Shown: piece after piece, positions 22,628 to 31,515 of the stretch
How the letters are laid out: every line of letters starts with the position of its first letter
How positions within the stretch are numbered: position 1 is the first letter of the stretch
From: Paludibacteraceae bacterium
GTDB taxonomy: Bacteria; Bacteroidota; Bacteroidia; Bacteroidales; Paludibacteraceae
NCBI GenBank assembly: GCA_017444065.1
Contig: JAFSXJ010000101.1
Coordinates: 1-42,117, forward strand
Length of the DNA stretch: 42,117 nucleotides
Direction: 5' to 3'
Notes under the pieces: model-generated
Told to the model about the DNA's origin: nothing
Databases searched by the model: none
The model's input: only the letters and a program-made list of their open reading frames with translations
Position numbers and translations under genes: made by a program

Positions 22628-24187
22628 ATGAAAAAAATCCTTTTTATTCTTACAATTGTCTTAACTCTAACAGGCTGTTCGGGTACTACATGGAGCGTGG
22701 TGGAGAGTTTTCACAACAACCTCCTCGCCGAGGACCGCTATCGGATGATTCTCGATGGTTTGCAGGTGACGCTGCTGATTACGTTCTGCGCTGCAGTACT
22801 GGGCACAATGCTCGGCGGGCTGGTCTGTTGGGCACGGATGAGCCGTCACGCGTGGCTGCAACGCCTTGCGAAAATATACATTGACCTCATGCGCGGCACG
22901 CCGGTACTGGTGCTGCTGATGCTGATGTACTACGTGTTTATGGCACCATTGCAGGCTGCAGGTATTGTCGTGGCTGTCGTCACGTTTGCCATGAACGCAT
23001 CGGCATATATAGGCGAGATGCTCCGTTCAGGCATTGAGAGCATCGACAAGGGACAGACCGAAGCCGGCTTGGCATTGGGTTACAACTCGCGGCAGGTGTT
23101 CATGCGCATCGTGCTGCCGCAGGTGGTACGTAAGGTCATGCCTGTCTATCTGGGCGAAGTCATCACCCTGCTCAAGGGCACCAGTATAGTGGGCTACATT
23201 GCTATCATGGATATGACGCGTGCCTCTGACCTTATCCGTTCGCGCACGTTTGATGCGTTCTTTCCGCTCATTGTGACAGCGGCTGTCTATTTTCTGGTAG
23301 CATGGCTCATCGGTCTGCTGCTCAACAGCCTTGTGGAACGCCGACGCCCGCGCGCTGTCGCTGCAGCAGCAGTGCTTGTGCTGTTAGGGCTCACGGGCTA
23401 TGTGCCGGATATATGCACCAGGGAAAGAGGTGCGATGTATGATGTACAAACCGACACGGAGATTCCTGATGTGTTCAAAGCCTTGAAGGGCAAACGTGTC
23501 GGCGTTGCGATGGGCAGCATACAGGACATTACCGTAACGCGTTACGCCCCTGAGGCGGATATCCGGCGTTACTCCAGTCTGACGGACATGATTGCCGCTT
23601 TGAAGAGCGGAAAGATTGACATTGTCTGCCAGGAGAATGTCACCGTTACGGTCAACAAAGAGATAGCAGCAGTGGTGGATACCATTGATGCAGGACTGCC
23701 GCCCAAACCTGTAGCTGCATGTTTCCAACTCGGCAACACGGAACTGCAGCAGGATTTTAACCGCTTCCTTCAGGAGATACGTGCGGACGGCACGTATCAG
23801 CAGATATGTGACCGTTGGCTGAAGTGCGATGATGCGTCCGCAGTACCAGTGCCCCGTCGCTCCGGCACAGGGAGGATGATACGAGTCGCCACGTTCCCCA
23901 TCTCTCCTCCATTCAACTTCATCTGTTCGGGCGAACTGTCAGGCATGGAGGCAGATTTGTTGGCGCAGTGGGCGAACCGGCGCAACTACCGGCTGGAGTT
24001 CCTGATTATGGATTTCGCTTCGCAGATTCCGGCAATACAGACCGGCAAGGCAGACTTGGCGATGGGCTCGATTGCAGTCACGGAGGAGCGGATGAAACAG
24101 GTGCTGTTCTCTGACCGATACAACGAGGCGCGTATCATGTTCTATACCCGCAAAGGCGAGGCGGAGATGACAGGAATTAAAAATTAA
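22628..24187 (+). CDS. ABC transporter fusion: permease followed by permuted solute-binding domain
   Basis: The 519-residue protein starts with a lipoprotein-like signal (TLTGC, Cys17). Directly after it comes a five-helix amino-acid permease (about 30-235) with the ATPase-docking loop EAGLALGYNSRQVFMRIVLPQ near 145-165. An extra hydrophobic helix (243-260) follows, then family-3 binding-protein lobe 2 (286-399: GKRVGVAMGS to DGTYQQICDRWL). Lobe 1 comes last (417-508: IRVATFPISPPF, IPAIQTGKADLAMGS, FSDRYNEARIMF). Canonical proteins have lobe 1 first. The extra helix would bring the chain back to the periplasm, where the binding domain must act. It is paired with the ATPase 25 bp downstream and is a rearranged paralogue of the protein at 26898. 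Amino-acid-type substrate by family. Confidence 0.9.
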   Translation: MKKILFILTIVLTLTGCSGTTWSVVESFHNNLLAEDRYRMILDGLQVTLLITFCAAVLGTMLGGLVCWARMSRHAWLQRLAKIYIDLMRGTPVLVLLMLMYYVFMAPLQAAGIVVAVVTFAMNASAYIGEMLRSGIESIDKGQTEAGLALGYNSRQVFMRIVLPQVVRKVMPVYLGEVITLLKGTSIVGYIAIMDMTRASDLIRSRTFDAFFPLIVTAAVYFLVAWLIGLLLNSLVERRRPRAVAAAAVLVLLGLTGYVPDICTRERGAMYDVQTDTEIPDVFKALKGKRVGVAMGSIQDITVTRYAPEADIRRYSSLTDMIAALKSGKIDIVCQENVTVTVNKEIAAVVDTIDAGLPPKPVAACFQLGNTELQQDFNRFLQEIRADGTYQQICDRWLKCDDASAVPVPRRSGTGRMIRVATFPISPPFNFICSGELSGMEADLLAQWANRRNYRLEFLIMDFASQIPAIQTGKADLAMGSIAVTEERMKQVLFSDRYNEARIMFYTRKGEAEMTGIKN

Positions 24188-24236
24188 CGCTTACGCTAAT
24201 TACGAATGACGAATGACCAATAACCAATCACCCATC
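24175..24236. repeat. Stutter repeat of ATTACGAATGAC words
   Basis: AATTAAAAATTAACGC is followed by TAATTACGAATGACGAATG and ACCAATAACCAATCACCC. The array encodes the last residues of the upstream fusion (GIKN), fills the gap and encodes the first residues of the ATPase (MTNNQSPI). Confidence 0.7.
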
Positions 24237-25286
24237 ATATCTGTTTCGCATCTGACGAAACGTTTCGGAGAATTAGTAGTTCTCCGCGACATCAGTTTTG
24301 AGGTGCACAGGGGCGAAGTCATCAGTCTCATCGGTCCGTCCGGCACGGGCAAGAGTACGCTCCTGCGGGCACTGAACATGCTCGAGCCGCCCACCTCAGG
24401 CGAGATATGCGTGAAAGGCGAAGTAATCACAGCACACGGTTATCCGCTCGACATGCTACGGCGTAGGGTAGGCATGGTGTTCCAGAGTTTCAATCTCTTC
24501 GAGCACATGACTGTATTGGAGAACATTACCGAAGTACCGGTGCACCTGTTGCACATACCCGAAACGCAGGCCAAGGAAGAAGCCTTGGCACTGCTCAAAC
24601 AGGTAGGCTTGGCGCAGAAAGCCGATGTCTATCCCTCCGCTCTCTCCGGCGGGCAGAAACAGCGTGTCGCTATCGCTCGTGCGCTCGCAATGCACCCCGA
24701 AGTCATCCTCTTTGACGAACCCACTTCGGCACTCGACCCGACGATGGTGGGCGAGGTGCTCAGTGTCATCCGCCAGTTGGCAAAGACAGGACTCACGATG
24801 CTCATCGTCACGCATGAGATGCGGTTTGCACGAGACGTCAGCACACGTGTATTCTTCATGAACGAAGGCATCATCTACGAGGACGGCACACCCGAACAGA
24901 TATTTGAGCATCCCGTTCACTCGGCTACCAAGGCCTTTGTCAACCGCATTCAGAAACTGGTCTTCGAGATAGATTCGGATGACTTCGACTTCTTGCAGAT
25001 TCCCACCGGTATCAATCAGTTCTGCCTCAAATACAACCTCTCTCAGGCGGACAACGCATATGCGTTAGCCAAAGAGATGCTCTTCACCCACATGCGTTCT
25101 TTCCGGCCGCTAACGTTGCGTATGACGCATGCGGAGTTAAGCGGCGTCACGGCATTGGATTTCATGGTGGAAGGACAGAAAGACTCTCCGCTGAATGATG
25201 CAGCCCGTGAGAGTCTCCGTCCGCAAGTCAAAGACCTCTTCGAAGAACCCACCAAACGTGGCTTTCGTGTCAAACTGATACTATAA
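24213..25286 (+). CDS. Amino-acid-type ABC transporter ATPase with C-terminal extension (1)
   Basis: A 357-residue ATPase with Walker [10 protein letters not shown] (41-49), Q-loop [11 protein letters not shown], signature [15 protein letters not shown], Walker [13 protein letters not shown] and switch VTHEM. These are GlnQ/HisP-like and match the amino-acid permease domain of the preceding gene. After the usual end near 245, about 110 extra residues follow (from [12 protein letters not shown] to RGFRVKLIL). Its paralogue at 28370 shares this tail. I do not recognise the tail; it could be a regulatory or dimer-forming domain. The first codons come from a stutter repeat, so the true conserved start may be VSHLTKRF. 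Confidence 0.93.
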
Positions 25287-25320
25287 ACGAACGAATACAT
25301 CCGACTAAAAGAATCGACAA

Positions 25321-26283
25321 ATGAAGAAAATCTGTGATTTCATAGCCAAATGGATGGGAGTGCTGGTGCTGATGGTTGCGGCAGTCAGTATGATCGTGCC
25401 TCAGTGGCTGACATGGGTTGGTACGTGGGTAATCAATCCGATGTTAGGCGTCATCATGTTCGGCATGGGACTGACGCTTACGGCGAACGATTTCCGGATT
25501 ATCCTCCATCGTCCTGTTGACATACTCATCGGATGCCTTACGCAGTTTACCGTCATGCCACTCTTGGCATGGGGGCTGACATGGGCGTTCTCGCTCCCGC
25601 AAGAACTGGCGATTGGTGTCATTCTGGTCGGCTGCTGCCCGGGCGGAACAGCGTCGAACGTCATCACTTATCTGGCGAAAGGCGACCTGGCGCTCTCGGT
25701 GGGTATGACCGCTGCCTCCACACTACTCGCACCGTTACTGACGCCGCTGCTCGTATGGTGGTTAGCCGGTACGATGGTGGATGTGGATACGATAGGCATG
25801 CTGCTCAGCATCCTATATGTGGTTATCCTGCCCATCGCAGGCGGCCTGCTCTGCCAACGCTTCATCCCCAAGATAACGCAGCGTGTGACGCCTTATTTGC
25901 CTGCCTTCTCATCTATCGCTATCGCACTCACCGTTGGCATCGTCGTAGCGCATAATGCCGACCGGCTGCTGACCGCAGGTATGCTCGTAGTGCTCGTCGT
26001 GATGTTGCACAACTTGCTCGGACTTGGCGTCGGTTATCTAGTCGGACGTCTGTTGCGCCTGCAGCGACCGAAGTGCGTGGCTCTCAGCATTGAGGTCGGT
26101 ATGCAGAACTCAGGCTTGGCAACTTCTCTTGCTGTACTGCATTTTGCCTCCTTCCACTTAGCTACAATACCGGTTGCTGTGTTCAGAGTCTGGCATAAAA
26201 TCAGCGGTGCGATTGTAGCACGCATCGCGTCCGCAACATTGTCAAGAAAAGATGTTGTTCACGAATTAAACGAATCAAACTAA
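25321..26283 (+). CDS. Bile acid:sodium symporter (BASS) family protein
   Basis: A 320-residue membrane protein with about nine to ten hydrophobic segments. It has the BASS signatures GVIMFGMGLTL (near 42) and GCCPGGTASNVITYLAKGD (near 107-125), which form the sodium-binding crossover. Members import organic anions, including bile acids, pantoate or keto acids, with Na+. It begins 34 bp after the ATPase and ends 30 bp before the CMD-like gene, embedded between two ABC transporters, so a related carboxylate substrate is possible but unproven. Confidence 0.92.
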   Translation: MKKICDFIAKWMGVLVLMVAAVSMIVPQWLTWVGTWVINPMLGVIMFGMGLTLTANDFRIILHRPVDILIGCLTQFTVMPLLAWGLTWAFSLPQELAIGVILVGCCPGGTASNVITYLAKGDLALSVGMTAASTLLAPLLTPLLVWWLAGTMVDVDTIGMLLSILYVVILPIAGGLLCQRFIPKITQRVTPYLPAFSSIAIALTVGIVVAHNADRLLTAGMLVVLVVMLHNLLGLGVGYLVGRLLRLQRPKCVALSIEVGMQNSGLATSLAVLHFASFHLATIPVAVFRVWHKISGAIVARIASATLSRKDVVHELNESN

Positions 26284-26313
26284 TTTCCGTTAAAGAAAAC
26301 GAAACGAAGCAAA

Positions 26314-26901
26314 ATGGAACTGTCTAATCGGATACTGTACCTCTGCGCATGTGCCGCGTGGGCTGCGAAAGGTGACTTGGAGAACCTGGCACCTGCCATC
26401 CGACGGGCGCTGGATGAAGGCGTCACAATCAACGAAATCAAGGACGCTTTCGCACAACTCTATGCATACGCTGGCTTCCCGCGCTCGCTGAATGCACTCG
26501 GTGTGCTGGAGAAAATTCTAAATGAGGAAATCGTAGATCGTAAATCGTCCAATCGTAAATGGCTTGAGGGTAAGCCGTTTGCGCGACCTGCCGCATGGGA
26601 CGATGCAGCGTTGGCGCTGAAAAAAGGAACCGAAATGCAGACCCGCGATGAAGGCGGCACACCATGGGACTATACCTTCTGCCCGCAAGCGGATTACTAC
26701 ATGAAGGCGCACCTCTTCGGCGACATCTATGCCGTGGATGTCTTCACACCTGCCGAGCGCGAACTGATCACCGTCGCGGCACTCTCCGCCATGGATGGTG
26801 TGACACCGCAATTTGAAGGACACAAGCAGTGCGCCGTCTTCATGGGCAACACCCCGGAACAAGTGGAATACCTCTGTCAATGGCTAAAAATAAATATATG
26901 A
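26314..26901 (+). CDS. Carboxymuconolactone decarboxylase-like protein
   Basis: A 195-residue, mostly helical protein with two CMD-like halves. The first is about 1-70 (LYLCACAAWAAKG, VTINEIKDAFAQLYAYAGFPRSLNAL), the second about 125-195 (ERELITVAALSAMDGVTPQFEGH). The family includes gamma-carboxymuconolactone decarboxylase and AhpD-like disulfide reductases. The AhpD CxxC pair is not intact here, and Cys11/Cys13 are only a CxC. Activity is therefore open. Residues 72-83 (EEIVDRKSSNRK) are written by a stutter repeat at 26528-26562, an unusual insertion between the halves. Its stop overlaps the next start by 4 bp (ATGA). Confidence 0.82.
   Translation: MELSNRILYLCACAAWAAKGDLENLAPAIRRALDEGVTINEIKDAFAQLYAYAGFPRSLNALGVLEKILNEEIVDRKSSNRKWLEGKPFARPAAWDDAALALKKGTEMQTRDEGGTPWDYTFCPQADYYMKAHLFGDIYAVDVFTPAERELITVAALSAMDGVTPQFEGHKQCAVFMGNTPEQVEYLCQWLKINI
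26528..26562 (+). repeat. Stutter repeat of ATCGTAAA words inside a coding region
   Basis: AATCGTAG, ATCGTAAA, ATCGTCC, AATCGTAAATGG follow one another at 7-9 bp steps. The array lies in frame between the two halves of the CMD-like protein, without breaking it. Confidence 0.75.
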
Positions 26902-28373
26902 GAACAAAATGGATTTGTCTTCTGCTTGCCGCGTGCATGATGTGGGCATGCGCCGGCGATAATGAGCAGTCCCTGGTGCTGGAGAGCGAGGCAGACCTCT
27001 CCGGTCTGCGTATCGCTACGCAGTCAGGCAGTTGTTATGATGTCGAGCTGTCGCCCCGCACGGACATCGAGTTGCAGCGTTACAACACGCTCTCCGATGC
27101 CATACAGGCCTTGAGGCACGGCAATGCGGATGTGCTGCTCAATGACGAGACGGCGCTGAACGCCTATGTATGCCGCGAGCAGGGCATCAAACCGTTATTA
27201 CGGGGAGAGAAAGCGTACCCGACGTCGTTCATGTTCCCGAAGGAAGATACGGCACTTGCCGACGCGTTCAATGCCACGTTAGCGCGACTGAAAGCGGACG
27301 GCACCTACGACCGGATCATCGACTATTGGCTTAACGACCGCTATATAGACGCCGATACGTTCCCACGCATCCCTATGCCCGAACAAGGACGTCCTATCCG
27401 CGTGGCATGTGCCTGCGCAACCGCGCCACTCTCGTTCATGTCGGGCGACGAGTGGTACGGACTGGAGATAGACCTGTTGCGCGAATTTGCAAACGACCAG
27501 AACCGACCGTTGGAAATCAAATTCTATGACGTCACAGCGGCAATCATGTCGCTCAAGACACGTAAGGCAGACCTCTTGTCCGGCGGCGTGTTCATCACAC
27601 CCGAACGGCAGTTGGAGTTCTCGTTCGGCGAGCCGTACTACGATTTCCATAGCACCTATTTCGCATTGGATAGTGAGTCCGGGAACAGCAAGAGCGGCTT
27701 GGCGGAAAGAAGCAAGCACGCCGTGCATAAGAACCTGCTGGCTGAGGACCGATGGCGTTTCATTACAGACGGTCTTTGGGAGACGCTCATCATCAGTTTC
27801 TTCGCTATCCTCTTTGGTTCGCTGTTAGGCATCGTGGTATATCGGATGGGCGAGAGCAGGCGTCGTTGGGCGCGCTCGATAGCGAAAGTATATAACGGCT
27901 TTATCGCCGGCATCCCTGAACTGGTGCTGCTGCTCGTGCTCTTATACGTGGTGTTCGCCAAGAGCGGCCTGTCGGCAGATGTCGTGGCAATCATCGCTTT
28001 TGCCATGTGTTTTGCCTCGGGTGCCGCGGATATCTACAAGACCTCGCTGGCCGCCGTGCCGCACGGACAGACAGAAGCCGGTCTGGCGCTTGGCTTCACG
28101 CCGGTACAGACCTTCTTCAATATTATCTTCCCCCAGGCGGTCAAACACGGGCTGCCACTCTATAAGAGCCTGTGCATCAATATCCTCAAGGCTACTTCCA
28201 TCGTGGGCTACATCGCCATACAGGACCTCACCCGTGCCGGCGACCTCATCCGCAGCCGTACCTTCGATGCGCTGGTACCGCTGCTGGTGGTCACTGTCCT
28301 CTATTTCCTGCTCGTATGGCTCATCGCCGCATTGTTTAATGGTGTTTCTAAAAAGCAAAAGAAAGTATTATGA
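26898..28373 (+). CDS. ABC transporter fusion: permuted solute-binding domain followed by permease
   Basis: The ATG at 26898 overlaps the previous stop and opens a lipoprotein signal (MMWAC, Cys18), giving 491 residues. Binding-protein lobe 2 comes first (about 35-147: [12 protein letters not shown] to [12 protein letters not shown]). Lobe 1 is next (166-257: [54 protein letters not shown]). The permease is last (276-485) with docking loop [21 protein letters not shown]. The [15 protein letters not shown] segment just before the first permease helix is shared with the fusion at 22628. The order L2-L1-permease is a cyclic shift of permease-L2-L1. It overlaps its ATPase by 4 bp. An amino-acid-like solute is inferred from family only. 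Confidence 0.9.
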
Positions 28374-29440
28374 TAACGGTTTCTCATCTCACCAAAACCT
28401 ACCAAAACGCGGATGGCAGTTCGTTGACTGTCCTCAAAGATATCAACTGCGAGATCCATCGCGGCGAGGTCATCAGTATCATCGGTCCTTCGGGTACGGG
28501 CAAGAGCACGTTCCTGCGTGCGCTCAATCTCCTTGACCCGCCTACCGGCGGCAGTATCCTGGTGGATGGCGAGGATATCCTTGCCAAAGGTTATCCGGTG
28601 CATAAACTGCGGCAGAAAATGGGTATGGTCTTCCAGAGCTTCAACCTCTTCGAGCATATGACTGTGCTGGAGAATGTCATGTACGCACCCGTCAAGATCC
28701 GTCAGCAGAGTAAGGCTGAGGCGCGTGAGGAAGCCTTGGCACTACTCAAGCAAGTAGGGCTGGTGGAGAAGGCGAATGTCTATCCCTCCTCGCTCTCCGG
28801 CGGGCAGAAGCAGCGTGTGGCGATAGCCCGTGCACTCGCCATGAAGCCGGAAGCAATCCTCTTTGACGAACCCACCTCGGCGCTTGACCCGACGATGGTC
28901 GGCGAAGTGCTCAGTGTCATACGCCAGTTGGCAAAGAGCGGTCTCACGATGCTCATCGTCACCCACGAGATGCGCTTTGCACGCGACGTCAGCACGCGTA
29001 TTTTCTTTATGAACGAAGGTGTCATCTACGAGGACGGCACACCCGAACAGATCTTCGAGCATCCCGTTCACTCGGCTACCAAGGCGTTCGTACAACGCAT
29101 CCAGAAACTGGTTTACGAGATAGGCTCCGATGATTTTGACTACCTGCAGATCCACACGGGTATCAATCAGTTCTGCATCAAATACAATATCGCTGAGAAA
29201 GCGGAGCCGGCGTACAGTCTGGTCAAAGAGATGCTGTTCACACATATGCGTTCGTTCCGGCCGCTCACCCTGCGCCTCACCCATACCGAGCTCAGCGGTG
29301 TCACGGCATTGGATTTCATGGTGGAGCACCTCGACCACTCGCCACTGACGGATGAAACCAGCAAAGCACTCCGTCCGCAAGTGAAAGAACTTATCGAAGA
29401 ACCCACCAAACGAGGCTTCCGTGTGAAACTGATCATATAA
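28370..29440 (+). CDS. Amino-acid-type ABC transporter ATPase with C-terminal extension (2)
   Basis: A 356-residue paralogue of the ATPase at 24213 with the same motifs ([51 protein letters not shown]) and the same tail of about 110 residues ending RGFRVKLII. Nucleotide identity to the other copy is high over long stretches, for example about 24890-24940 against 29030-29085, which suggests recent duplication or gene conversion. The membrane partners have diverged much further. The ATGA overlap with the fusion gene implies translational coupling and a dedicated pair. Confidence 0.93.
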
Positions 29441-29480
29441 ATGGTAAATGACTAAATGGTAAATGGCTTTATGGCAAATC
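29440..29480 (+). repeat. Stutter repeat of AATGGTAAATG words at a gene start
   Basis: AATGGTAAATGACTAAATGG, then TAAATGGCTTTATGGCAAATC. It holds two candidate start codons (29456 and 29471) of the downstream phosphatase. The same word appears in reverse inside that gene (30405-30439) and again at 39563-39597. Confidence 0.7.
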
Positions 29481-31210
29481 TCAAAGATCTCAAGCGCAAC
29501 AAAGGCGGCTTATGGATACTCATCATAGCCGCAGCAGTATTGGAGGCGACCTCTGTACTGCAGTATTTCTACAGCGAGCATATCATCAATATTGCCGCCG
29601 AACAGGTGGTACAAGGCGAACTGCGCAACATCAACACCTCGATGGAATGTATAGCCGACAGTGCTGCCAATGTGCAACTGAACTACATCGTCGAGCGCAT
29701 GAAGCAGTACCCCAACTGCTATTATACCCTGACTGACGCACAAGGCATGGAACTTGTTCCGCCGCCGGATACTATCGTCGGCGACAAGTACCATCGGTTC
29801 AGTGCAGAAATGGGTACGCACGGCTGGACTCTCTCGGTACTCATACCCGATGCCGACCTCTACGGCCATTTGCGCCGCATAGGAAGAATAGTAACCCTCT
29901 TGATGCTGTTGGGGCTGGCGCTGTTAGTGTTCATTATCTACCGCTCGGCGAAAAACATCCTGAACCTCATCAACGTGCAGGAGGGCAAGCAGCGCATAGA
30001 GAGCGAGCTCCACATCGCCCGTAATATCCAGATGTCGATGTTGCCCAAGACCTTTCCGCCGTATCCCGACCACGAGGATCTGAATATGTACGGCATCATC
30101 ATCCCTGCAAAAGAAGTGGGCGGTGACCTGTATGACTTCTACGTGCGTGACAACCGTCTGTTCTTCTGCATCGGTGACGTGAGCGGCAAGGGCGTACCTG
30201 CGTCGCTGGTCATGGCGGTGACACGTTCACTCTTCCGCACGACTTCGTCGCACGAGAACGACGCGGCAAAGATCGCCTATATGATGAACGAGGCGATGGC
30301 GGAGATGAACGAGCAAAACATGTTCGTCACTCTCTTCATCGGTATGCTCGACCTCACTTCCGGGCAACTCGACTACTGCAATGCCGGGCATAACGCGCCG
30401 GTGTATTTACCATCTGGCAATTCACCATTTACCATTTTAGAATGTCAGCCGAATATCCCGTTGGGTATATTGGCGGGGTACAAGTTCAGCTCACAGCAGA
30501 CACTGCTCCATGCCAACGACAGCCTGTTCCTCTATACCGACGGACTGACGGAGGCGGAGAACGCCGCCAAGCAGCTTTTCGGCGAGGAGCGTATGATGGA
30601 GGCGGTAGCGCGTTGGAACAACGACATGGACTCCAAGCAGCGTATCGAGGCTATGCGGAGCGAAGTGCAAGCGTTCGTCGCCAATGCCGAGCAATCCGAT
30701 GACCTGACTATGCTGTCCGTCATCTGGTCGCCCTCCAACAGTCCGCAGGACGGTCTTACAGCGAACGCAAGTGAGCGGTCTTACAGCGCAAGCGGTCTTA
30801 CAGCCGAAGGCGGTCAGACCTACCGCATGACCATGCGCAACGACATACGTACCATCCCCACGCTGTCCGAATGGGTGGACTCGCTGCCCATCCCGCAGGA
30901 ACTGAACATGACCATCAACCTCGCGCTCGAAGAGGCGGTCAGCAATGTCATGCTATACGCGTACCCTGAAGGAACAGCCGGCGCTGTGGAACTGACAGCC
31001 ACCAAGACGGCCAAGACAATCACCTTCACCATTGAGGACTCCGGCAAGACCTTCGACCCGACTGATCAGGCAGAACCCGATCTCACCCTCTCGGTTGAGG
31101 AACGCCCCATCGGCGGGCTTGGCATACATCTCGTGCGCCAGATCATGGACGAGATACGCTACGAGCGCATCAACAACAAGAATATTTTAACACTCATCAA
31201 ACGCATATGA
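29456..31210 (+). CDS. Membrane PP2C (SpoIIE) phosphatase fused to an anti-sigma-type HATPase
   Basis: The 584-residue protein has a membrane helix at about 18-36 and an extracytoplasmic sensor-like region to about 142. A second helix follows (145-168), then a short signalling helix and a SpoIIE/PP2C phosphatase (about 185-425: AKEVGGDLYDFY, IGDVSGKGVPASLVMA, CNAGHNAP, YTDGLTEAEN, SDDLTML). An RsbW-like HATPase kinase is last (455-584: NLALEEAVSNVMLYAYPEG, GGLGIHLVRQIMD). The two halves oppose each other in partner switching: the kinase phosphorylates a STAS protein and the phosphatase reverses it. The STAS gene overlaps by 4 bp. Residues 432-453 between the halves are written by a GCGGTCT element. 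A start at 29471 is equally possible. Confidence 0.9.
   Translation: MVNGFMANLKDLKRNKGGLWILIIAAAVLEATSVLQYFYSEHIINIAAEQVVQGELRNINTSMECIADSAANVQLNYIVERMKQYPNCYYTLTDAQGMELVPPPDTIVGDKYHRFSAEMGTHGWTLSVLIPDADLYGHLRRIGRIVTLLMLLGLALLVFIIYRSAKNILNLINVQEGKQRIESELHIARNIQMSMLPKTFPPYPDHEDLNMYGIIIPAKEVGGDLYDFYVRDNRLFFCIGDVSGKGVPASLVMAVTRSLFRTTSSHENDAAKIAYMMNEAMAEMNEQNMFVTLFIGMLDLTSGQLDYCNAGHNAPVYLPSGNSPFTILECQPNIPLGILAGYKFSSQQTLLHANDSLFLYTDGLTEAENAAKQLFGEERMMEAVARWNNDMDSKQRIEAMRSEVQAFVANAEQSDDLTMLSVIWSPSNSPQDGLTANASERSYSASGLTAEGGQTYRMTMRNDIRTIPTLSEWVDSLPIPQELNMTINLALEEAVSNVMLYAYPEGTAGAVELTATKTAKTITFTIEDSGKTFDPTDQAEPDLTLSVEERPIGGLGIHLVRQIMDEIRYERINNKNILTLIKRI
30405..30439 (-). repeat. Stutter repeat of AATGGTAAATG words inside the phosphatase domain
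   Basis: On the minus strand TAAAATGGTAAATGGTGAAT is followed by TGCCAGATGGTAAAT. It encodes YLPSGNSPFTIL in the PP2C domain. The words match those at 29440-29480 in the opposite orientation. Confidence 0.6.
30750..30816 (+). repeat. GCGGTCT element, copy 3 (inside phosphatase-kinase linker)
   Basis: CGGTCTTACAGC occurs at 30751, 30776 and 30792 (steps 25 and 16 bp), with the longer core AGCGCAAGCGGTCT at 30785-30798. Successive units are read in different codon phases, so the DNA word, not the peptide, is repeated. Confidence 0.8.
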
Positions 31211-31515
31211 AAGTAGAAATTGAAACCGGCAACAGCGCAAATGCCGTTGTTGCCCGCCTGCAAGGCAGACTCGACACCGCTGCTGCAGTGGATGTAACCC
31301 CGTATTTTGAGCAGCTCGCTCAGTACGCTGCCGGACATATCATCGTCGACTGTGAGCAGTTGGAGTATATCGCCTCTTCGGGGCTGCGCCTGCTGCTCGG
31401 TTTGCGCAAGGAGGTGGCGGCGAAGAGCGGCAGACTACAGATTCGCAGTATCAACAGCGACATCCGTCAGGTCTTTATGATGACCGGATTCATCAGTCTG
31501 TTCGAAATCGTGTAG
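31207..31515 (+). CDS. STAS-domain anti-sigma factor antagonist
   Basis: The 102-residue protein is a single STAS domain of the SpoIIAA/RsbV type. LQGRLDTAAA (18-27) and IIVDCEQLEYIASSGLRLLL (45-64) carry the phosphorylatable serine (57 or 58). It is expected to be the substrate of the kinase and phosphatase halves of the preceding gene, which it overlaps by 4 bp. No sigma factor or other partner gene lies in the window, so the controlled target is unknown; the upstream transporters are candidates only by position. Confidence 0.92.
   Translation: MKVEIETGNSANAVVARLQGRLDTAAAVDVTPYFEQLAQYAAGHIIVDCEQLEYIASSGLRLLLGLRKEVAAKSGRLQIRSINSDIRQVFMMTGFISLFEIV

Follow-up and report, generated by a model that had tools for sequence, protein, structure and literature searches.

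We analyzed a 42,117-nucleotide stretch of DNA from a Paludibacteraceae bacterium (phylum Bacteroidota; GenBank assembly GCA_017444065.1, contig JAFSXJ010000101.1, forward strand), hereafter the window, and found that it encodes two ATP-binding cassette (ABC) transporter proteins, P0001 and P0002, whose type II substrate-binding domain (SBD) almost certainly, judging by sequence, has the reverse of the canonical segment order: the segment resembling the C-terminal part of HisJ (L2) precedes the segment resembling its N-terminal part (L1). Both proteins probably represent a larger group of amino-acid-type importers with permuted binding domains, possibly tied to partner switching. The features of the two proteins and of the ATPases that follow them are given below, all on the + strand.

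22628..24187, +, P0001, a single open frame of 519 aa with the order lipobox-permease-transmembrane helix (TM)-L2-L1
22628..22678, +, lipoprotein-type signal of P0001 (LPAM_1, residues 1-18, Cys17), immediately ahead of the permease
22700..23347, +, permease domain of P0001 (HEQRo_perm_3TM / BPD_transp_1; Pfam residues 60-239)
23354..23407, +, extra hydrophobic helix of P0001 (residues 243-260 by sequence)
23477..23830, +, L2 segment of P0001 (residues 284-401), the HisJ-like C-terminal part
23876..24163, +, L1 segment of P0001 (residues 417-512), resembling the N-terminal part of HisJ and containing the Arg that corresponds to R77 of HisJ
24213..25286, +, ABC ATPase following P0001, with a C-terminal extension at ~24927-25283
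26898..28373, +, P0002, 491 aa from the ATG at 26898, with the order signal-L2-L1-permease
26988..27338, +, L2 segment of P0002 (residues 31-147), the HisJ-like C-terminal part
27393..27683, +, L1 segment of P0002 (residues 166-262), the HisJ-like N-terminal part
27714..28358, +, permease domain of P0002 (Pfam residues 307-481)
28370..29440, +, ABC ATPase following P0002, overlapping it by 4 bases, with a C-terminal extension at ~29078-29437

Segment order and ligand site of the binding domain

Pfam identified in each protein a BPD_transp_1 permease and two stretches of SBP_bac_3 (E 1.2e-31 and 1.1e-24). With a BPD_transp_1/HEQRo permease and an ABC ATPase, both systems conform to polar-amino-acid-type (PAAT) importers of the HisMQP/GlnPQ type, and the best matches in the PDB were the permease 4yms for P0001 and 6h30 for P0002. 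The SBP_bac_3 segments of both proteins lie in the order L2 then L1, rather than in the canonical order L1 then L2. The alignment of AncQR (4zv1) with P0001 assigned chain positions 12-109 to residues 418-514 and chain positions 113-231 to residues 284-398; since both parts of the chain are covered, the binding domain of P0001 is complete and its segment order is reversed. Upon rotation, the global alignment scores against HisJ rose from 11.5 to 203.5 for P0001, from -12.0 to 143.5 for P0002, and from -45.0 to 116.0 for L224, a stand-alone relative, compared with -1.0, -2.0, and 21.0, respectively, for the best of 200 residue shuffles. As controls, the identical segment hidden Markov models returned the order L1-L2 for Escherichia coli HisJ, for ArgT, and for a Mesorhizobium binding protein, and the 20 stretches at the more distant permease matches in the phylum contained 19 L1-L2-permease fusions and one case of separate L1-L2 and permease genes.

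The circular permutation that a first-pass annotation had proposed for both proteins is thus borne out by the AncQR alignment and the rotated HisJ scores, the profile alignments giving L2-L1 and not the canonical order. Its other structural claims agree with the present data as well: the permuted module follows the permease in P0001 (permease-TM-L2-L1) and precedes it in P0002 (L2-L1-permease), the helix proposed to return the P0001 chain to the periplasm corresponds to the hydrophobic stretch 243-260 and to a helix at 240-256 in a low-confidence model, and the two proteins are related, with permeases 45% and binding domains 30% identical. The permutation was, however, regarded there as a trait of this pair, which did not hold, as many members of the phylum have the L2-L1 order.

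In the rotated HisJ alignment, the permuted unit starts shortly ahead of the strand LKGKRVGV. The cut falls after the first crossover strand (SRLVVAK in HisJ), which stays with L1, and not in the hinge; both hinge strands are therefore retained, with the new termini in lobe 2, where we presume the lobe membership of the crossover strand and of the cut loop to be that of HisJ. With the segment bounds used here, the linker joining the old lobe-1 termini is 15-18 residues long. The permuted unit would be tethered via lobe 2 and the canonical fusions via lobe 1. Each L2-L1 unit very probably folds as one normal bilobed domain. The predicted structures set a limit on this reading: the model of the P0002 domain, based on 7 sequences, was modest (pLDDT 72, pTM 0.63), and the full-length model of P0001 was poorer (pLDDT 59, pTM 0.44). 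Whole-model structure searches placed L2 of the model on L1 of the target, in a pseudo-symmetric register, so the whole-domain matches speak neither for nor against the packing of the lobes; the entries with a single lobe were the informative ones.

The Arg equivalent to HisJ R77, which we take to be the carboxylate-binding residue, was found in 130/130 permuted L1 units, including P0001 and P0002, and in 23/25 canonical ones. At the position of HisJ D161, presumably the Asp that binds the amino group, Asp occurred in 86/146 permuted and 24/24 canonical units. These residues point to a ligand that likely has an alpha-carboxylate and is probably an amino acid. The counterevidence includes the Glu that P0001 carries at the D161 position (P0002 has Asp), the lack of Ser at the HisJ S72 position of both P0001 and P0002 in the HisJ alignment, and the wide variation of the remaining HisJ contact positions among permuted units. 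A decayed domain that no longer binds a ligand was nevertheless rejected on the grounds of the R77 equivalent in all 130 units.

Relatives and history of the permuted unit

Relatives of P0001 were found in 17/61 genomes of the near-genome search, in which many members of the window's own genus gave no match, indicating a patchy presence, and in 69/395 genomes at the phylum level, some of them with canonical permeases only. Relatives of P0002 were found in 24/393 genomes at the order level. A class-level search with the P0001 domain returned the window's own genome alone among 295. Beyond the phylum, we inspected plasmid records (30 listed of 472 matching, with the order checked in two) and performed one scan of named contigs, which yielded six loci. 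The named carriers are Bacteroidales/Bacteroidetes assemblies with titles that mention goat reticulum, horse faeces, and red deer; the sixth locus, from Arcobacter, was matched through its permease. The chlorosome protein Bac_chlorC was present in 7/7 genomes of one further family (f136), which identifies them as green sulfur bacteria, and in none of five genomes of other families.

Frame forms were counted in a subset of the loci, for distinct frames not truncated by the locus end. The permuted frames comprised 32 L2-L1 alone, 30 L2-L1-permease, 13 with two units (one partial copy), and 8 with three units. There were also 5 permease-L2-L1-ATPase and 4 permease-L2-L1 frames, and the canonical forms were 19 L1-L2-permease and 2 L1-L2. 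Across all loci, 44 distinct frames hold L2-L1 alone, and 40 of these span 258-299 codons from stop to stop; a lipobox-like pattern is present in 39 of them. In five of the nine permease-first proteins (L004, L033, L035, L036, and L131), a second hydrophobic stretch after L1 leads to the ATPase, giving single-chain importers with the order permease-TM-L2-L1-TM-ATPase-extension (906 aa in L033 and 929 aa in L036 by the listed starts). Four loci (L125, L127, L129, and L130) encode two adjacent permease fusions with unequal numbers of binding units, perhaps heterodimers. Permuted lipoproteins were also observed in stretches without a permease match (L222, 8433-10066; L223, 8941-9765; L224, 9365-10159); a SpoIIE gene lies near those of L222 and L224 and is absent at L223, and the L222 stretch also holds a weaker match to an ABC ATPase (133 bits).

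The recurrence of these forms bears on three alternatives to a permuted domain within one chain. First, the arrays might be made up of canonical L1-L2 domains flanked by unpaired terminal halves, so that the permuted look depends on where counting starts. An L2-L1-L2-L1 array does have an internal L1-L2, but this very improbable interpretation fails for single units (P0001, P0002, and the stand-alone proteins), and in the SBD tree the first array units group with the stand-alone L2-L1 proteins; for P0001 and P0002 it was rejected because stand-alone L2-L1 units exist. Second, L2 might pair with L1 of a partner chain, either within a dimer of permeases or across the P0001-P0002 pair. Permeases function as dimers, TmArgBP swaps domains, and the linker could permit such an exchange, but both the 44 distinct stand-alone units and the tree (81 units), in which L2-L1 blocks move whole between stand-alone proteins and arrays, argue against a swap and make it improbable, even if either would also be compatible with a swapped dimer. 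Third, an artefact of assembly or gene models could be suspected in a fragmented genome of 145 contigs (completeness 80.6). The same orders repeat, however, in other genomes at 65-74% identity and in the single-contig genomes G503 and G260, and we rejected this explanation, the likelihood of which is close to nil.

The history of the permuted module was approached with a permease tree of 100 rows, rooted on the canonical fusions and leaving out the partial copy L063. The 19 canonical fusions fell on one side of a branch (100/98), and the permeases of the canonical systems L037 and L115 fell on the other side on long branches (7.05 for L115), and the software flags a risk of long branches being drawn together. 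All nine permease-first proteins belong to a single clade (100/96) within a 23-row clade (100/95) that also holds 14 L2-L1-permease rows, including P0002. This nesting of permease-first among module-first proteins indicates that the SBD-first order is older and that the permuted module was later moved as a block behind the permease. A lipobox lies directly ahead of the permease in P0001, L036, and L131 and in none of the other six permease-first proteins (N-termini judged by eye), and is apparently a remnant of the older SBD-first order. The earlier suggestion that one ancestral gene was duplicated and re-cut is therefore supported as to the kinship of the two proteins, whereas two fresh cuts of one tandem gene are contradicted by the nested permease-first clade. 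With a branch support of 84/83 in the SBD tree, the P0001 module may or may not derive from a P0002-like fusion.

A free tree of 64 permuted and 24 canonical units required two changes of order; a single origin of the permutation was not rejected (p-AU 0.40), though it was recovered in only 19% of the bootstrap trees. In the free tree, L219 and L220, which are the deepest permuted rows, join canonical L115 on long branches. Among the rows shown, matches of the unit profile were contiguous only across the border between tandem domains (GlnPQ 6h30 and BvgS 4q0c), as expected if a tandem canonical pair had been re-cut.

Neighboring partner-switch genes and the ATPase extension

Partner switching follows a general scheme of RsbW-, RsbV-, and SpoIIE-type proteins. 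Two genes with domains of these types follow the ATPase of P0002.

29456..31210, +, SpoIIE-type phosphatase (residues 232-422) and RsbW-type HATPase_c_2 (470-582) in one protein, preceded by hydrophobic stretches
31207..31515, +, STAS protein, RsbV/SpoIIAA-like, with the motif YIASSGLR

The first gene starts 15 bases past the ATPase and is overlapped by the STAS gene by 4 bases. Its RsbW-like domain carries the N-box Asn, and the window thus appears to encode a SpoIIE-type phosphatase, an RsbW-type kinase, and a STAS protein with the serine motif. SpoIIE, RsbW, or STAS genes were found within 5 kb of 27/72 permuted loci, the window included, compared with 0/20 canonical loci (Fisher 5e-4, a value that overstates independence because of the kinship among the loci and because some genomes contribute two of them). 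This count omits L230, which comes from a second copy of the L155 genome, and keeps L221 and L225, the order of which is not readable as L2-L1. Two or three kinds of partner-switch genes were present at 21 of the 27 loci, and all three at 11. The motif [IV]-[SA]-S-[SA]-G-L-R was recognized by eye in 17/19 STAS matches, and a stricter S-S-G test was passed by 6/19. Regular-expression tests of SpoIIE motifs gave mixed outcomes (10/20 and 19/20) and were set aside. Further families of the order, and green sulfur bacteria too, show this neighborhood. At L215, in a genome with Bac_chlorC, the genes form a row encoding NMT1-like, dCache-HAMP-SpoIIE, binding protein, three-unit-permease, one-unit-permease, ATPase, STAS, RsbW, and Xan_ur_permease products, four junctions of which overlap by 4 bases.

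Walker B is followed by 190-213 residues in the ATPases of permuted loci (68 rows), compared with 79-90 in the canonical ones (21 rows); the set also had 3 unclassified ATPases (tail 204). An extension of at least 100 aa (~120 aa) was present in 66/66 permuted-locus ATPases that passed the filters; 2 unclassified ATPases were also in this set, and just 5 canonical ones passed the motif filter. In pairwise comparison (hhalign), a profile of 61 extensions matched RsbW-type domains at 97.8% (E 7.5e-13) and did not match the control profiles of L1, L2, permease, and STAS (0.1-0.3%). The RsbW match is carried by 44 of the rows (98.1%), and the 17 window-like rows matched these 44 at 99.0% over the first ~94 positions. 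As the 44 match RsbW, the window's extensions are linked to it indirectly, via their relatives. The Pfam model HATPase_c_2 gave 30.0 for L067 (cut-off 27.4) and values below the cut-off for L125 (22.9) and L049 (11.9). The N-box Asn and the G1-box Asp, both of which occur in 18/18 RsbW-like rows, were each found in 0/61 extensions, so the extension is an apparent dead derivative of RsbW that is more diverged in the window; from these residues, its kinase activity looks lost.

A possible coupling of transport and partner switching

We propose that P0001 and P0002 would act as importers of the polar-amino-acid type with a circularly permuted type II binding domain. Each unit would start after the first crossover strand and run through L2 and the C-terminal lobe-1 helices to a new linker joining the old C- and N-termini. 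The domain of P0002 stands ahead of the permease, to which its lobe-2 end would tether it; that of P0001 was later shifted behind the permease, where the added helix would return the chain to the periplasm, and in five of the nine permease-first proteins a second helix into the ATPase unites the entire importer in a single chain. Docking of the STAS protein on the ATPase extension, and with it the gating of transport, might then depend on how kinase and phosphatase have set the phosphorylation of the STAS protein; in the alternative direction, the loaded transporter might hold the STAS protein and so report the ligand. That docking on the extension couples transport and partner switching has, in our estimate, nearly an even chance of being correct. 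The fuller version, a solute-gated partner switch in which a dead RsbW-derived ATPase domain serves as the STAS dock and through which the ligand outside and the kinase and phosphatase inside control each other, is offered tentatively, as rather more apt to fail than to hold.

A competing interpretation, which we regard as quite possible though somewhat short of an even chance, accepts the permuted domain but sees a plain nutrient importer, with the partner-switch genes as mere neighbors and the extension as a structural or trans-inhibition domain, for which MetN and ModC provide a model. Several observations speak for it and against the proposed coupling. No partner-switch gene lies within 5 kb of 45/72 permuted loci, some of which are at contig ends, and at the canonical locus L165 a match of the SpoIIE type lies 5257 bases away, just beyond that limit. 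The 17 window-like extension rows alone matched RsbW at 0.1%, and HATPase_c_2 was not detected in either extension of the window at E<=1 or in the whole L215 ATPase at 1e-3. The invariant R77-type Arg would equally suit ordinary amino-acid binding. On the other hand, the majority of the family's extensions match RsbW but none of the control profiles, and the same neighborhood is seen again in further families of the order as well as in green sulfur bacteria.

Several known systems resemble the present ones in part. SpoIIE, HATPase_c_2, and STAS domains encoded next to the transporter, with the serine motif retained, are shared with partner switching; the degenerate RsbW-related extension on an ABC ATPase sets the present systems apart. 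To our knowledge, the GlnPQ ATPase has no RsbW-like part. GlnPQ (6h30), the best PDB match of the unit profile as well as of P0002, belongs to importers that share with the present ones a PAAT permease preceded by tandem family-3 binding domains (PMC8025302). In GlnPQ, however, each domain is L1-L2, a contiguous match of the permuted unit crosses the domain border, and there are two units, compared with one to three here.

Natural permutation of a binding protein has its nearest precedent known to us in TpMglB-2 (Tp0684), a glucose-binding protein of type I that was proposed as type Ic or cluster Bc; according to the excerpted text, it is likewise a membrane-tethered ABC binding protein that retains ligand binding (PMC4990184). 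It differs in its type I fold, in which three N-lobe strands are relocated and a fourth crossover is present, and the excerpts describe no permease fusion (PMC4990184). The domains in the window are SBP_bac_3 and do not belong to the type I sugar-binding family. The nearest precedent known to us for an ABC ATPase bound by a STAS protein is MlaFB, in which a C-terminal extension of the ATPase contacts the neighboring STAS protein; the authors discuss phosphoregulation and state, in the portion consulted, that phosphorylation is so far without experimental evidence (PMC7367683). In contrast to the RsbW-like extension described here, that of MlaFB is extended, ~25 aa long, and not RsbW-like, and the system transports lipids (PMC7367683); a STAS-ATPase link in the window and its relatives is suggested by gene neighborhood. 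In the open-licence literature, judged by titles and abstract openings, we recognized neither a permuted family-3 domain nor an amino-acid importer linked to partner switching.

This would be a natural circular permutation of the type II fold, one that is represented by five forms (stand-alone, arrayed, amino-terminal, carboxy-terminal, and single-chain), so that nature itself offers a comparison of how the choice of tethered lobe acts. A periplasmic solute signal would be tied to partner switching if the RsbW-related extension works with the neighboring SpoIIE, RsbW, and STAS proteins. Green sulfur bacteria contain a full operon, and the genetic tractability of some of them makes the coupling idea testable.

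The interval between the two transporter pairs of the window (25321-26901) contains a gene of the carboxymuconolactone-decarboxylase family (Pfam) and a gene that, by eye, resembles a BASS-type sodium symporter.

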